A stretch of DNA of 64,000 nucleotides from Mugil cephalus. Its lineage: Eukaryota > Chordata > Actinopteri > Mugiliformes > Mugilidae. The stretch spans positions 15,445,913 through 15,509,912 of the forward strand of contig NC_061783.1 in NCBI RefSeq assembly GCF_022458985.1, given 5' to 3'. Below are positions 8,000 to 26,400 of the stretch, piece by piece. Each line of letters starts with the position of its first letter. Position 1 is the stretch's first letter. A program made the translations under genes and the position numbers. The notes under the pieces were generated by a model. That model was not told the origin of the DNA and made no database searches. It saw only the letters and a program-made list of their open reading frames with translations.

Positions 8000-8527
8000 T
8001 CAATCCTTCTTCTCCCCCGGTTTGTCCTCCGTCTTGTCCAGGAAGAAGTCGTTGCAGGCGACCGTGAGGGCGCCCATGAGAATGATGAACTCGGTAAAGT
8101 CCACCTCCCCGTCGTTGTTGGCGTCCAAGTCGTTCATCACCTTCTCGACCGCTTCATTATCTTTGGAGGTCTGTCAGCAGAGCACACAGAGAGGGTTAAG
8201 AATGTGTTCTCTGTTAAGTGTGGGTGGGCGTACGTCGCCGCGCTGGCTTGTTCAAACTTGTGTGTGTCAGAGAATGCGAGCGCATACCTTCACTCCTGTG
8301 ATGCATATTTGCAAAACGGCATCAGTGTGTTAGTGTGCAACCGCATATTTGCCTCTTGACACACATCTCTTACCCCTAAGTAAGTCCCCAGCTCCTCTAG
8401 TAGCAGCTCCTTCAGCTCGCCCCTGCTCAGAGTGTACTTGTCGCCCTCCTTCCCCGAGTACTTGTGGAAAGTCTTTATGAGCATCTGCATGGCACTCTCC
8501 AGATCGGAACTGGGCTCCTTGGACATG
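8000..8527 (-). CDS. s100a1: S100A1-like EF-hand calcium-binding protein (107 aa)
   Basis: Small dimeric calcium sensor. Coding exons are 8527-8374 (ATG at 8526-8524; acceptor ctctccag just outside 8527; donor gtaaga at 8373) and 8170-8000 (acceptor ctgacag; stop TGA at 8002-8000), joined in phase 0 between the two EF hands as in S100 genes generally. Residues about 24-37 ([14 protein letters not shown]) form the S100-type first EF loop. The second is canonical, [12 protein letters not shown]. The following [11 protein letters not shown] is very close to the S100A1/S100P/S100Z C-terminal helix; S100A1 is the best fit from memory, particularly SGKEGDKY and ELKELL. The tail after DFF is about 13 residues longer than in human S100A1 and lysine/aspartate-rich. 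Intron 8171-8373 is empty. The strand agrees with the two S100 genes that follow. Confidence 0.85.
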
Positions 8528-9886
8528 CTGGAGAGGACATCAGGTCAAAAGGTCAGACTCTGCCACACAATGCCCGCTCCAGCCCCAGCTGCATGTGCGG
8601 CCACATGGCAATCAAGGGTGAAGCCACCTCCAAGAAAAAAGTGATAGCGGGACAGGCAGATTGGTGGATGGGTGGATGGATGGAAAACAGAGCGGAAAGG
8701 ATTTCCTGTTTCCCGTTTCTAGTGGTATTACTGACCCAAATTCAAGTGGTCTGGCCACGATGTGTGCGTGACCATACTAGGTTTTTTTTGCATTTCAGAG
8801 GTGTGGATGGAAAGATGGAGGATAGCGTTGGAAAGCGAACAATCTTACACACATTGTGTCCGGCATCTTGGAGCTGCTTGTGCTGGACTCGTGGAGAGAC
8901 TGTTCACACACAAACACAGACAAGTCACTGTCAATGATGCAACGTATGAGATGCGGTTTAAAAAAATAAAAATAAAAGGCGCACGCGCTCAGCTGTTTTT
9001 ACGACACGTGCAACAACTGATCCTGTCTAATCAAGGAAACGCGTGAAAACACGTCCCCCCGCCCCTTGATCCTGTAACGGCCTTATCATTTAAAATGGAA
9101 ACCAGCAGTGAAACACAACACTCGTCTGGTAATCACGTTCAGAAACTAAGGGGGTGAGTAACCTGAGGTGCCACTATATGCTCTAACTACTGCCTACAGG
9201 TCATGCATTCAGCTTTACAGTTCAGTTACAAAACAGTATATATATATATTAAAAAAAAATACGGCGTTCAAAAAGTTGAGACTAATCCATAACTACACAA
9301 AACCGGCTGCCAATCACGGCATGCATGATTTATCAACTATCAGCTGCCACAATAGGAGACGGGGATGATGATGCCAGGCTGCGCTCATTGCCTGTCGTCA
9401 CGCTGCAGAGCACTGTACCGTAGAGGTCAGGGCTGCGGCCTGCAGAGACAAAAGACGAGGCCAAGTGGACACCAAAGCTGCCCTAACTGGAAAATCTATA
9501 GGGGTCATCTGTCTCACTGGCACAATAGGAAACCATGGAGACCCAAAAATGCCATCAGTAATAATGCATAATGTGCTCTCGGTGATGGAGCAGGTTGAGT
9601 GACGGGCTGTTGTCATTATTTTAACGCTGCTTTTCCACCTGTTGCCTTCGCTTGCCTCCGTATCTCACGGATGTGTGCACCCCCTGTCATCTCAGAGCTC
9701 AGAGGAAAGTAACAGGGCGCACAAAATGTCATCACACGGCTTTGTTTCTCCCGAGCCTCCCCGCTGAGCGCCGGCGGCGGGGAGGCTGCTAAAAGTTGAT
9801 AAACTGCATTTGCTGAATAAGGAAACCTTTTTCGGACGCAGACGAGAAAGTCTGCTGAAGAGACCCTTCCAAGTTGTCTGTCTTAC

Positions 9887-9989: not shown

Positions 9990-12400
9990 CTGCTTCCCTC
10001 CCTCCCTCCCCCTTTCCTCACCTCCTCCCCTCCTTCGCCCTCTTACTCTCTCTCTATTTCTCTCTGCAGGTGTTTTCTCTCCTTTCCATCACTCACACAC
10101 ACACCCACACCTGATACCTGGCCGTCTAATTGCGCAAGAAACTGAGAAAAAGCATGCCATTGTCACAGTTTTATTCAATATTAGCCATTACATAGAGTAA
10201 GCAAAATGATACAGCATTACATAAGTCGAAGTATTGGAATTATGAAGTTTATTGGACATGACAGGGGACTGAAACGAGTCCAACCGCTGAGCACTCGCAT
10301 ACCCGATTTCACTCGGCAGGAAATAAACAAGAGCACAGTGATGAAATCCCGCACGATATCCTGGGAACAGTCCCATAATCACAAACATTTTGAGCCGGCG
10401 GGGCCTCGAAGGCGCACACCAGCACAGCCACTCACACAGGATTCTTAACTTTTTTATCTTCATCCACTGTATCTCAGATCGAACGAGACTCATGATGAGG
10501 TGACCGGAACCTGGCCGCAAGCGCTCCCTGCTGTGCTCGGCCCCGGCATGTTTTTAATCTAAATCAGTTAAGGCTGGGTGGGGTTTGCGCTACGGGTCTT
10601 TGTTAGAAAGCCGTCCGGGTGCCATTCCAACCAGGCTCAAACACGGGATTATTTGTGATAGACTAATCCCCGGATGATGTTTAATCCAAGTCTGTTTACA
10701 TAAAATATCGGAATGTTTGCGCAAATTAAATGAATTTTGCTCCGGGCAAGAGACTTGATCTTTCAGTTCTTTGCAGGAAGAAGTACCAAAAAAAAAAAAA
10801 AGTATTAGGACATAAAATGATTTTAATAAAGCAAATATTATAGTCCAAAAAGCCCAGGATGTGTATGTACTTGTTAGTAAGTGTTAGTAATGATGCAGGA
10901 AACATTGTGAGTATGAAAGCCGAGCAGGGTGAGCGTAAATGACAGTATTTACAATGGGAGTGTCACAGCGGTCACGTGACTCAAGCTTATTTGTCTTGCC
11001 CATTTTGCTCTCAGGCGGTTTGAAGTGCCAGGTGCTCCAGCAGTGAAAAAAATGGTGCACATTTGGTAGTGTACCCAAAAATGTGTGTGCCTTAAGCACC
11101 ATGCAGCTGGCCACACGCACACCTATTGCAGAGCGGGCCCCGCAATTCAAGCCTTTTTGTTTTCCTTTCTCACGGCTGCATTATTGATGATGAGACAATT
11201 TACAAATCATTAAAATGTAATTAACAAATTGCATATAATGTGTCAAAGAAGTACAGCTTCAAGTGATCTCCATAGTGGTTAGATATAGGTTTAAAAGATA
11301 AATATAAAGGGGCCGAGTAGAACTTAAATAATGGCCATGATAATGGTAATACACTGGTAATATATAGCAAAATAGTTTTCTGATAGCATGCAACACATTA
11401 TTATTATTAGCCTGCTGTAAAAGGTCACACCACAAACATAATTCATATAGATGGCTCAGTATTCTTTTTTTTTTGGCTTTAAAATAAAATAATAACGATA
11501 ATTAAAAAAAAAGAAGCAACGATCTGACAACGATCCCTTTGACACCTCGTCTGATGGGCAGGTTCACCAGAGCCCGGGATTGCTTTCATGTAATTGTTTT
11601 GTGTCCCAGGGTGTGTTACCCATCAAATCCCTAATCCAGTAGTTTCCCAAAATGCCTTGGTACACAAGGATCCAGTTGCAGGTCATACGGGGTCTTTAAA
11701 CTGTGCGAGGGCGTGACCGACAAACAAACACGCAAGTCTGAACACCTGGCGAGTAAACAACGAGCTTTGTTAAAGACAGACTTTCTGCAGAGGGTTGCTC
11801 TTATCCCTTCCATCTACCCAGTGCTACCAGGGGTCAATGCAGATAACACCTAAGGGTCAACAAGTACAACCCTGGCATTGTTTTGAATGCACAATAACGC
11901 AGGCGCTGACTGAAAATGTCATGTCCACCCAAGTGACACCTGTAACGGATTTCTCTACTTCTTGGCGTTTTGTTATCGTTCGCCTCTAATCCAGGTGGAT
12001 TCGGTTGCATGAACACCTTCTCTGACCAGCTCGCCTGGTCACCAGTCGTCTCCCATAGGAGTTATTTCGGGCCCCCTTTTGACCATAAGGGTCCTTTGGT
12101 GTGGATTCCGTTCTCGAAGTTTAATTATTTAGCCGAGGCTCACACCTGATCTTCCAGGTCTTAATTCACGGCCGCCTCAGAGAAAGAGACAGAGAGCCCA
12201 TAAAGAAGGCTAGAAAGAGAAGGAAGAAGAAGAAGAAGAAGAGGGTGTGATGGGGGTACCGAGGACACATTGAGGTGAGCAGAAGAAATGCAAAGCTTCA
12301 GCAAAACAGTTCGTTTATTGTCATGCTAAATCAGCTCCATAGCAAAAAGGTGAGAATGTAAAATAAAATAATAAAAAAAAAAAGTTTAGCGTCAGATTCT
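9990..12400. other. Intergenic between the first and second S100 genes
   Basis: No coding exon seen. It has C/T-rich sequence at 9990-10080, A-rich runs near 10785-10800 and 11465-11515, and a (GAA)n run at about 12220-12242. Part of it is expected to be the 3' UTR of the second S100 gene, since TTTATT (AATAAA on the - strand) occurs near 12312. Confidence 0.4.
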
Positions 12401-13239: not shown

Positions 13240-14478
13240 CTATGAGGCCGCCTCATCTGTCTTCTCTACTTCTTCCTCCGCAGCTGCAGGAGGCTTCTCG
13301 GGGGCAACTTCCTCCACTACCGTTTCCACCTCTTCTTTCTCAGACACCTCTACCACCTCCGTTGTCGCCTCCACCACCACTGCTGCCGCCGCCTCCGCCG
13401 GCTCCTCCTTTGCCGCCTCGGCCTTCACTTCCACCTTCGCATCCGCGTTTGCTTCTACCTTGGCTTCTGCGGTCGCCTCGGCCTTTGGCTCTTCGTTCGC
13501 CTCTGGCTTCACTTCCTCGTTCGAATCTGGCTTCTCGTCCTCTTTTCCGGGGGTGCTTTGCGTCACTTGTCCGGACGCGGCGTTCTGGTTGCGCTGCTCG
13601 CTCAGTGAAACCGCCAGGTAGCCGATCAGCTTCATGTACTCCTGAAAGCCGACCTTGCCGTCCTGGTTGGCATCCAGGCCCTGGGCCATGTTGTTGACCG
13701 CCTCGTTGCTGTCTGAGTCCTAGGTGGTGGGCACAGGCAACCATGGGACAATCAAGAACTAAGTCTCACTCATGAAATTGCACAATACACGCTCAGTACA
13801 TGACAATCTATCGAACGTTCAGCCCTATCAAATCACATTAGAGGTCAGTCTATCATATTTCCATTCCTCTGATGTGTCTGACCTCGCAGATTGGTCAAAT
13901 CAAATCAAACTTTATTTTTATAGCACTTTTCATGGTGCATTCCAGGATTAAATACAGTATGACTGAGCACTGAAGGGACCGAGTGAGGAAACGCCATTAT
14001 TTAGGAGCCGTCCACATCGAGAGGTGTCACAGCCCACGGCTACAGAGGATGCCACCAGAGAGACCGCCCTGACCCAGACAGACAGGGGCCCACAACACGG
14101 CCATAAAGCCCTGGAGCTAGACCCCCAATCCACCAGGCCAGGAAAAACCCCCAGGTAGGCACCTCTGTAGGCAGGCCACACTCAACTCCCGCCGTGGAGG
14201 ACCCAATTTACAATTCACCTGTTAAAAATGCGGACGTGTCAATACTGGCAAGAGCTAATATGAGACTTTGTCCTTTTTCTGCGAGGCTGTTACATAAGGC
14301 AGGTGTTGGCAACAATTCAGAGGGGTGCAATAAAGGTTCGCTAACCGAAAGGATGTTGCCCAGCTGGTTCGTGACGAGGTTCTGGAACTCTTTCTTCCCT
14401 AGGTACTCTTTCCCCTTGGTCGACTTCAAGTAGACCTTCACCAGGCTCTGAATGGCGTTCTCCATGACTCCTCTCTGT
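13240..14478 (-). CDS. S100A14/A16-like protein with a long Ala/Glu/Lys/Val-rich tail (199 aa)
   Basis: Calcium-binding S100 domain fused to a low-complexity tail. Exons: 14478-14346 (ATG 14465-14463; acceptor cccccag-type before 14478; donor gttagc at 14345, a weak match) and 13719-13240 (acceptor cacctag; stop TAG 13242-13240), joined in phase 0 at the usual S100 position. The first EF region is degenerate (VYLKSTKGKEYLGKKEF). The second is canonical, DANQDGKVGFQE, then YMKLIGYLA, which resembles S100A16/A14/A13 (DEYWTLIGG type). The S100 fold should end near residue 90. About 105 residues follow with repeated EAKVEA/KPEANEE-like units, acidic overall, ending EKTDEAAS. Typical S100 proteins are 90-110 aa. 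The tail is encoded in the same uninterrupted exon as EF hand 2, so it is not a splicing artefact. Its fish name is not known to me. Confidence 0.8.
13895..14185. repeat. Interspersed fish repeat within the tailed S100 intron
   Basis: Starts with tcaaatcaaatcaaacttta, then tttttatagcacttttcatgg. This 'caaatcaaatcaa(a)ctttatttttatagcac' text is, from general knowledge, a very common SINE/LINE-tail repeat in fish genomes. It continues with ccctggagctagaccccc and ccaggaaaaaccccc. It sits in the intron between the two coding exons (13720-14345). The borders are approximate. Confidence 0.55.
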
Positions 14479-18876: not shown

Positions 18877-20328
18877 CTACTGACTGAATCCTCCCTGCTT
18901 GCTCGCCAGCTTTCCGATCAGCTGCCAGAACTCCGAGAAAGTCAGCTCCCCGTCATTGTTTTCATCCAGCGAGCCCATGAGTTGGTCGATGGCCCCGGGG
19001 TCGCTGGCATTCTGCGGGCAGTCACAGAGAGGGGACACTGAGCATTAAGAAGCCGCAACATCAGATACTCTGAAAGGCTGTCCTGCCACCTAATGGATGA
19101 ATTAAGTAACAATTATAACTAAAAAACACACACACAGATTAGTTTATAGTCACACTGGATAGTGATAAAATGATAGAATCTTACAAAAAGACCTAAACAA
19201 TGTGTTAATAGTTAGTTACACATGTCATAGTGGCTATTATAAACATTTATGAAATTACAATATGTATGACTTCTACAAAGCAAAGGTAAACAAAGGCAAA
19301 AGACTCATTTAAAGTTTCGGTCTCCCCTCATCTAAGAGTCGACGGTGGGGCCTTGTGAGTTTCGTATACAGTAGTTAGAACTAAAGAAGCCGCTCGGATG
19401 ATGGATGAGACATCTTCCAGAAACACAAACAACTCCAGCTGCAGCCTTGTTTTAGATATATGACCTTTTTGATTGTTCACTGAACACGACTACTTCCGTT
19501 TGAAGCGGCCACAGCATTTCAGCAGCCGCGAAGAAAGAGCAGTTGTGCGTCGCTTGGCGACACGTTCCCAAATATGGCGCGCGGCCCTTCGTTTTAATTG
19601 CGTCGTAAATTTAATACGTTTATTGTGTCGCGCCACTCAAAGCACTTTGCGTTTCGTTGTTGTTAACCGATAGATGCACAGGGTGTCCCATGAGTCTGGA
19701 CCAAAGGAACTTCTTCTCATTCGCGTTCTCACAACTACGTGTGCTCTAAAGGGTCGTGGGAGCTATCCCAGCTGTCATCAGGGGTACACACCCTGGACAG
19801 GTGGCCAGTCTGTCACTGATGCAGAGAGACGGACAACCACACCTACATCCTTAGAATCACCAATGAACTTTGGACGTCTCTGGAAGAAAGAAGCCGGAGT
19901 ACCCAAAGAGAACCCAGACACCCTACTGTGCAGCCCCCAAGGCATTGTTTTTTCCTATCAGTCCCAACCTATGAGACACCCTGTGTATCATAAAAATGAA
20001 AGCGAATAACGTCCTTTAGGGCAAAAGGGAGATTTTTATGAAGGGAAATAGCAGCGCAGTTATATATAAGAGCAATAAAACCACATTAGAATTAGAGCCG
20101 AGAGGCTTCAAACACCTACGTGCTGCACTATAAACTACCGTTTGCTAAGTGTAATGTAGCAGTTAAAGAAGCTATAAACGGCCGAAGAGGCACACCTTGA
20201 CATAGTTGGGAAGCTGCGAGGTCACCAGGTTGTGGAATTCGTCTTTACTCAGCGTGCTGGCGGATCCGTCTTTCCCAGCGTACGTCTTGAACTGGGCGAC
20301 AAGGGTGGTGATGGCGGCTTCCATGATG
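18877..20328 (-). CDS. S100A13-like EF-hand protein (87 aa)
   Basis: Small calcium-binding S100 protein; the mammalian relative S100A13 helps release FGF1 and IL-1alpha without a signal peptide. Exons: 20328-20196 (ATG 20324-20322; acceptor ctctgcag; donor gtgtgc at 20195) and 19011-18877 (acceptor cccgcag; stop TAG 18879-18877), joined in phase 0. The sequence has FHNLVTSQLPNYVK and EFWQLIGKLA, close to S100A13 (FKELVTQQLP, EYWRLIGELA) by memory. The second EF loop DENNDGELTFSE is canonical; the first is the S100 pseudo-type (YAGKDGSASTLSKDE). The basic C-terminal tail of mammalian S100A13 is missing; the protein ends KQGGFSQ. Intron 19012-20195 carries a mariner-like insertion and a CpG-rich patch. 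The family call is firm and the orthology likely. Confidence 0.82.
19677..19985. mobile_element. Mariner-like inverted-repeat element in the S100A13-like intron
   Basis: The ends read cacagggtgtcccat at the left and atgagacaccctgtg at the right, a 15-bp inverted repeat with one mismatch. The interior has ggggtacacaccctggacag, then gccggagtacccaaagagaa, which from general knowledge is a repeat motif seen in many fish genomes. There is no transposase frame. It looks like a non-autonomous copy or a repeat nested between the termini. Confidence 0.6.
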
Positions 20329-23441: not shown

Positions 23442-26400
23442 TTAAGCTGTGGCGGCGAACTTCCACAGCGCCTCTCGTTCAAACTCCTCCATGGCCTCCT
23501 CCAGGGAGTCATCGTCCTCCTGCCCGTTGCCCTCCACAACGTCCACCATGTCCTCCAGGATGTCCGCCACGTCCTCGGCGAAGTCGCTGAAGCGCACCCG
23601 GTCGTGGATGAACACGCCGCCCTCGAAGAAGTCTTCGGTCAGCTTCCTGATCTTGTCCTTGCTCTCGGACGAGGAGCCTTCGAGCTTGCTCAGGTAGCCC
23701 TCCAGCAGCTCCTCGAACTCGGACAGCTCCACCGGGTAGAGCCCCTCCTTGGCGGCGCAGTCCTCCACAGAGGTGCAGCCGAGCTGGGGGCGCACGTTGC
23801 GTTGGAGCTTCTGCTCCTGGTCTCTCCAGAAGTCGTTGTGGTGGTGCTGGTGAGCCTGTCGGTGCTGGTGGTGGTGGTGGTGATGTTGGTGCTGATGATG
23901 AGGCCCGTGGGAGTTTTTACCCGGCGGGCTGTGCCACGGTTTCTCCTTCCTCCTCTCCTCCCTGTCCACTCTGCGCTCGCCCTTCTTCCTCTCCCACTCA
24001 TCCTGGTGTTTCCTCCAGGCTTCTTTGTGGGAGTTTTGTTTCTGAGACTTCCACTCCTTCTCCTTCTTCTCCTCCTTGCCGTGCTTCCATTCTTTCTCTC
24101 CTCGCCACTCCTTCTTCTCCTCTTTCTTGTGGTGGTCCCGCTGGTTGTTTTTGCCTTTGTTCCCCTTCCACTTGGAGTCCTGCGGCTCCTTCTTCTTCCC
24201 CCACCTCTCGACCTGCTCTGAGAGTTTCTTCTGGATCTCCTCCAAGTTGTCCCTGACTTGTTTTCTGTCTCCTCCATCTTTTTTCATCCCCTCCAGCCTT
24301 TTCTTGCTCTCCTCCAAAAGAACCTTCTGCCGGTGGAGTTCTTCTTTCAGCTTCGCTCCCTCGTTTGCGTCCTTCCTCCTCTCTGGTCCAGCCGCTTTCC
24401 GGTTACTCTGGTCATCTTTGGTATCAGGCTGGGAGGATGAACTAGAAGGAGCCGGGAGTACTCCCTGATCAGCTGTGGAAGTTTTAAACATGTCAAAGTT
24501 CAGATAAAGACTCTCGAGGAATTTATTTTTAATCACCTCAGATTTAATTCAATATGATCATACCTTGGAGCTGACTGAGTTCGGTCACCCTGGACCTCAG
24601 ACTCTGCAGCTCTTGCTTCAGCTCAGGTAGAGATGACAGCTCCTCTTTCAACTTTGCGTTTTCTCTTTCCAAATCTGCTTTACCCTTTTCATCGCCACTT
24701 GCTGCCGCTGCCTCCAGTGTGGCGTCAAGTTCTTCTTTCTGAGACTTTAGACACAGTTCGCAACGAAGGAAACGTCAAAAAGGAGACAAAAATCAAACAT
24801 ATGGATTTAAAATGTGCTGACCAGGAAACTGAATAAGAAGAAGTGAATAATTAGCGTCGCTGCGACTCGGTACTGACCCGTAGCTGGGCTTCTAGCTGAG
24901 TGATTTGCTGGTTTTCCTGCGTCAGTTTATCCAATAGCTCTTTCATATCCTGTGGATCACCGCTAAGCCAGTCCTGGATTGAAAATCATTGGTGCACAAA
25001 TAAGACACATATTTTCTAAAAATGTCATGTCCTATTAGGTTAAGCGTTTGCCTTTAAAGTTTTAAGACACGTCATGCTTTGTTTAAACAGCACTGTACTC
25101 ATACAGGATACTGGGAATGTGCAAGAGACAGCGGAAACAGACCTGGCTTTGTTCTCCATCACTCAGCTCAGAGGCGTCAAAGTCACCTGTCAGACGAGAA
25201 AACAACACCTTCACACATACACACTCGGAAGCTTTTATTGACATCCGGCCGCCAAGTCGTCTGACAGCATCGGAGGTGTTGTGGATGCACACTGCACACT
25301 ATTTCTATTACATTTTAGCCAACCAAACACAGTGCTTGCGGTCCATCCACTGAGTCATTCCAAACAGCGATGAACTGTGTTAATAAACAATTCAGAAAAC
25401 ACGTTATTTAGCTTTTTTTTTCTGCTGTCGCTTGCGCAGCCTGTCGGGTCAGATGAGAGCTTAAGACAAGCGATTGAGCGTTAGCCAGTGAGCGCAAAAG
25501 CTTACACTGCTGGCTTATCTTTAGTGCTGGACCTACCATTATCCAGGTCAGAGAGGAAACCTGTTGACATAGTGCAGCTTAGTCAACAAGATCTATAAAC
25601 AGACACCTAGGTTTTGCTGACAACTGCAAATAAAAGGTGCTTATGTAACTGGGAAATACTGCCATTGTCAAATAAGTGTAATGATGCAGCCTCCAATTCA
25701 ACAGGTGCAAAAGATGATTCTAATGTGTTACCGCAGTAACAGTTATTTAACTGGAAACGGTGAGAACATAGTAAAGTGGTACCTAAAAAGCCGAAGTGAG
25801 CTAGCAGGCCTAGTTTGGCATGAGAGGAGCTCACCTGAGAGAAACAGGGAACCTAAGAAGAGCAGGACCAGAGCCGCCACGATGCATTTGTTCATGGACA
25901 ACCACGGCTTTTCCTCCTGCCTTTCCGCCATTTTAAATTCCACTTCCTCTTCCTCATCTTCCTCGTCCGATGTCCTCGGTCTTGGTCCTTCGAAGTAGGG
26001 CACGTTCCTCCTCCTCAGCCCATCGTCAAAGCCGCTCGTGTCGCCCACATCGAAACCGCCTGGTGGCTCCGACAGAGGTAATTCTGAACATGGAAACAAG
26101 TGAAGACGACACGGCAGAGTCATTGTGTGTCTTTTGTGATAGACGACGCCATAAACCTAAACCACATGTGTTCACGTCCCTACAACAAATCAACTCGGCA
26201 TTTTTGGCGACGTGAGCGACAGAACGAGCGCCCTTTCCAAGATCATAATTACAGAATCTGCTGTGACGCCCTCGAACAACACGCCCGAATCTAAGTGAAT
26301 GCACCAGTTTATAAACAGCACATGAAACAAATTCTGAGCTGGCTGCGGAAATGGATGACATTTTTCCTACTAAATTACAACAGCAGTAATTTCATGCATG

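Follow-up and report, generated by a model that had tools for sequence, protein, structure and literature searches.

A probable S100U gene with a long acidic tail in the mullet Mugil cephalus, and its tail-less sister gene

What kind of gene is encountered when an S100 domain runs on, within one exon, into a long acidic tail? The question is raised by a gene on the minus strand of a 64,000-nucleotide stretch of Mugil cephalus DNA (assembly GCF_022458985.1, contig NC_061783.1, positions 15,445,913 to 15,509,912 of the forward strand), the whole of which is called the window here. The gene encodes 199 amino acids and, taken as a whole, is best explained as one of the teleost-specific, tailed S100U kind, a reading to which we give a probability of roughly four in five. 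A long-tailed S100 is an already described kind of protein and largely ordinary; the new details are an eight-residue repeat within the tail and a tail-less sister gene on contig C11.

Gene model and S100 domain

Two EF-hand exons joined at a conserved position are the rule in the S100 family (PMC2266712). In the gene studied here the exons 14465-14346 and 13719-13240 are joined in phase 0 at GNILS/DSDSN, the same place as the junctions of the other S100 models. On the minus strand, 13719-13240 forms an open frame whose translation starts DSDSNEAVNNMAQGLDANQDGKVGFQEY and ends EKTDEAAS, followed by TAG. The features of the coding region are:

14346..14465, minus strand: first coding exon, with the ATG and EF hand 1, residues 1-40; donor TCG/GTTAGC (sequence reading; Pfam S_100)
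13240..13719, minus strand: last coding exon (exon B), with EF hand 2, helix IV and the entire tail; TAG stop at 13242-13240 (sequence reading)
14385..14426, minus strand: shortened S100-type EF loop 1 with a three-residue gap, limits approximate (alignment of 17 S100 models)
13639..13674, minus strand: canonical EF loop 2, DANQDGKVGFQE, residues 56-67, intact (sequence reading)

The S100 part comprises residues 1-82 of the 199 and scored 25.5 bits against Pfam S_100 (PF01023; cut-off 22), and 27.5 bits in the genome scan. Using phmmer, S100 structures were returned, the best lone-S100 chain being S100A16 (2.6e-9). Pfam analysis of exon B alone gave no match at 0.001. With the phase 0 junction and the domain score, the 199-residue S100 model proposed in a first-pass annotation of the window is upheld. 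The protein had also been called a calcium sensor, which probably holds in a limited sense: EF loop 1 lacks three residues, so that loop 2 is the only canonical one.

The acidic tail

EF hand 2 and the tail share one exon, the frame being uninterrupted from helix IV. The features of the tail are:

13243..13593, minus strand: acidic low-complexity tail, residues 83-199 (117 residues), net charge -22 (composition; disorder prediction)
13402..13521, minus strand: octapeptide (24-nucleotide) repeat NEEVKPEA NEEPKAEA TAEAKVEA NADAKVEV plus one degenerate copy, residues 107-146 (period-8 test)
13493-13542: 24-nucleotide array found by Tandem Repeats Finder (TRF; tandem repeat finding)

The composition is dominated by E (26%), A (21%), V (14%), K (9%) and P (7%), and there is no H, C, W, F or Y across the 117 residues. 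Identity at period 8 was 37, against 15.7 expected, and none of 1000 residue shuffles reached as high a value. The signal is confined to residues 105-152, the same periodicity test detecting no such period 8 in residues 153-199, and the 24-nucleotide units are in frame with the protein.

The tail was predicted to be disordered by charge-hydropathy analysis. AlphaFold2, run as a single-sequence model on exon B alone, placed helix IV to about residue 89 and gave block means of the predicted local distance difference test (pLDDT) of 40-51 from protein residue 91 onward, with one low-confidence helix at 148-166. In such GC-rich DNA the openness of the tail frame is in itself weak evidence: dinucleotide shuffling of the tail DNA left the frame open in 61 of 2000 cases, and on the opposite strand two of the three frames are stop-free.

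The tail frame and its disordered acidic character are as described in the first-pass annotation, which had EF hand 2 run on unbroken into a low-complexity acidic stretch with EKTDEAAS at its end, and whose coordinates proved exact. The repeats that it pointed out are real, and the charged, low-complexity and disordered nature that it proposed agrees with both predictions, the AlphaFold2 model adding weak support. It was right that the tail is long, though not that it has about 105 residues, the length being 117.

The genome was searched with an S100 profile, giving 23 matches, 17 of them above the cut-off; 19 loci (L001-L019, the tailed gene being L017) were examined, and L020-L023 lay outside. 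Tail length could be counted in the 18 S100 genes with a readable last exon, L014 being left out for an apparent frameshift in its EF hand 2 exon. Counted after position 12 of EF loop 2, the tailed gene has 132 residues and the other 17 of the 18 have 17-35, so that the long tail occurs in a single one of the genes compared.

Relationship to S100U

The literature describes a protein with similar features. According to the Additional File 4 legend of Kraemer et al. 2008 (PMC2266712), an extension of 130-140 residues at the C terminus is common to three teleost S100U genes; S100U and S100V are described there as having lost about three residues from EF loop 1. The same paper has S100U as a gene of fish only, missing from medaka among the species studied and duplicated in pufferfish. 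In zebrafish s100u, as reported in 2025 (PMC12047837), positions 90-240 are predicted to be disordered and hold no histidine, residues 1-89 were used for modelling, and some expression was seen in immune cells of developing fish. S100u is also listed among the genes that social housing changed in the stickleback brain (PMC4569571). The first-pass annotation knew of no S100 with such a tail, a view that is overturned by the extension published for teleost S100U in 2008 and by the zebrafish region called disordered in 2025. The long-tailed S100 fits a described fish subfamily and so is no oddity of a single assembly. In the literature naming 's100u', with most subscription journals lying outside the search, no study of the function of the S100U tail was found, and what is recorded on the subfamily goes little further than notes on expression.

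The assignment to S100U was made by features shared with the published descriptions and is accordingly probable. An 82-residue piece of the protein, run against collections of viral and prokaryotic contigs, gave no confirmed orthologue, a result without bearing on fish. Two other identities were considered. In S100V most key residues of EF hand 2 are lost (PMC2266712), and this identity was rejected because the EF2 loop, DANQDGKVGFQE, is intact in the tailed gene. S100W or A11 was dropped; the neighbouring genes L010 and L011 are better fits to A11 and A13 structures.

Several observations weigh against the S100U reading. The tail of 117 residues is shorter than the published 130-140 and the approximately 150 of zebrafish, although it measures 132 if counted from EF loop 2. 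The EF1 gap is common to six of the 17 aligned S100 models (L012, L013 and L016-L019) and is therefore not specific to S100U. The donor TCG/GTTAGC is poor, at 3.32 bits by an approximate splice matrix; by the same matrix an equal or higher score is reached by 13% of the GT dinucleotides of the window, and eight GT sites within exon B outscore it. The AlphaFold2 model of exon B has low overall confidence (mean pLDDT 55; predicted template modelling score, pTM, 0.25) and is therefore weak support for disorder. Finally, C14, the contig of the window, carries an ictacalcin-like gene. In zebrafish the ictacalcins are found on chromosome 16, but S100U is on chromosome 19, together with A10a, A11 and S (PMC2266712).

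The sister gene and the collinear blocks

In trees limited to the S100 genes of this genome, L017 and L019, the latter on contig C11, are sisters, with support of 95/87 in one tree and 98/95 in another. L019 specifies 91 residues without an acidic tail, ending SLSESKSGSNADAS, ten residues past SLSE, and by-eye inspection past its stop showed no relic of a tail. The two proteins are 52.5% identical over 80 residues, and in both the EF1 gap is present and EF2 is intact.

An inverted collinear block on C11 (L024-L029, C11:9240001-9300000) shares five genes with window positions 159-24548: an SH2-domain gene, an A1/S/T-type S100, a U-like S100, an A11/W-like S100 and a PBXIP1-like gene. PBXIP1 and SHE are the names that we presume for block genes; the SH2 domain was confirmed by Pfam in one window exon only. 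Because the blocks are collinear, the L017/L019 pair would most simply date from the teleost genome duplication, a later segmental duplication being the alternative. A1/S/T-type and A11/W-like neighbours are present on both C14 and C11. Neither of two further S100 genes is a firm marker: the A10-like gene on C14 tied with structures of A1 and Z, and S100Z gave the best score for the A1/Z-type gene on C11.

The other members of these neighbourhoods were noted as follows:

8003-8544 and 18880-20324, minus strand: S100 genes of A1/S/T and A11/W-like type, flanking the tailed gene in a three-gene cluster
23445-24548, minus strand: PBXIP1-like exon (name presumed) with a His-rich run, its end matching the C11 block; no Pfam match at 0.001
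12314..12319, minus strand: candidate poly(A) signal, the first AATAAA past the stop (920 nucleotides), by motif only

Elsewhere on C11, L013 and L014 (at about 8.999 and 8.994 Mb) have an identical first EF-hand protein sequence with a short EF1 loop, and L014, its EF2 exon apparently frameshifted, may be a pseudogene. A search of the whole window with Rfam at gathering scores gave no matches.

Alternative explanations

The explanation that survives best beside the S100U reading, unlikely but to be taken seriously, is that the tailed gene is the genome-duplication partner rather than the orthologue of zebrafish s100u. The short C11 sister would then be the positional counterpart, and the tail would be an ancestral feature lost from the C11 copy or a separate gain. 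The collinearity of five genes between C14 and C11, the sister pair supported at 98/95, the ictacalcin-like gene on C14, as on zebrafish chromosome 16, and the place of zebrafish S100U on chromosome 19 all agree with this, but the A1/Z-type gene on C11 carries no firm name and the tail itself matches the description of S100U. The explanation overlaps with the preferred one, since the gene would still be S100U-like.

Slightly less likely again is a tail without a selected function, namely a repeat that expanded neutrally on an S100 and is tolerated there, the work being done by the core. The tail-less sister, a repeat of the slippage-prone kind and a tail length that differs from the published lengths would suit it. 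The extension is, however, common to three S100U genes in PMC2266712, and has therefore lasted; the lack of H, C, W, F or Y in 117 residues also speaks against neutrality, though low complexity alone could yield that. A gene-model artefact, in which the message ends or splices earlier and the frame is open by chance in GC-rich repeat DNA, is very improbable despite the other open frames, the 61 of 2000 open shuffles and the GT sites of exon B that outscore the donor used, for the frame runs on directly from helix IV, and chance openness was set aside because the 24-nucleotide repeat is in frame and the published S100U extensions are disordered, free of histidine and about as long.

Within the S100U reading a further, tentative step can be taken, which we hold to fall somewhat short of even odds. 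S100U may have been kept twice after the teleost genome duplication, with roles divided between a compact S100 using EF2 only and an S100 with a long, repeat-extended polyanionic arm; the duplication of S100U in pufferfish, noted in 2008, may represent the same ancient pair. If so, the two genes would be a natural comparison, with and without tail, of the effect of a disordered arm on an S100. Being sisters that both have the shortened EF loop 1 and differ in the arm, they would allow that effect to be measured cleanly.

Possible mode of action

The protein would form homodimers, as do other S100s. Calcium would be bound canonically at EF loop 2 only, upon which helix III would move and expose the target-binding face. 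The dimer would bear two flexible polyanionic arms that emerge from helix IV next to this face. Such arms may act through charge and bulk and not through folding, by competing for or screening basic partners, by keeping the protein soluble, or by carrying short binding motifs. As the first-pass annotation proposed, they may also alter localisation, partners or phase behaviour. Through slippage in the repeat, tail length may change from one species to another.

Comparison with known proteins

Among proteins with an S100 domain followed by repeats are the fused-type S100 proteins filaggrin and trichohyalin. The tailed gene is like them in carrying repeats after the domain and differs in both tail size and repeat type, their tails being far longer and built of other repeats; on this general knowledge a filaggrin-type fused gene was ruled out by size and repeat. 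BASP1 and MARCKS have an acidic, Ala/Glu/Lys-rich disordered chain comparable to the tail, but are without EF hands. The mullet gene L018, assigned to S100V by features only, shares the EF1-loop gap, whereas its EF2 loop is degenerate and it has no tail.

The closest likeness is to teleost S100U (PMC2266712; zebrafish in PMC12047837), which combines the EF1-loop deletion with a long C-terminal extension on the S100 domain. The likeness to zebrafish s100u reaches into the extension, predicted to be disordered and free of histidine, as is the mullet tail. The difference lies in length, with 130-140 residues in teleost S100U, or positions 90-240 in zebrafish, against 117 in mullet, and in the mullet genome, which, compared with published S100U, retains a tail-less sister copy.
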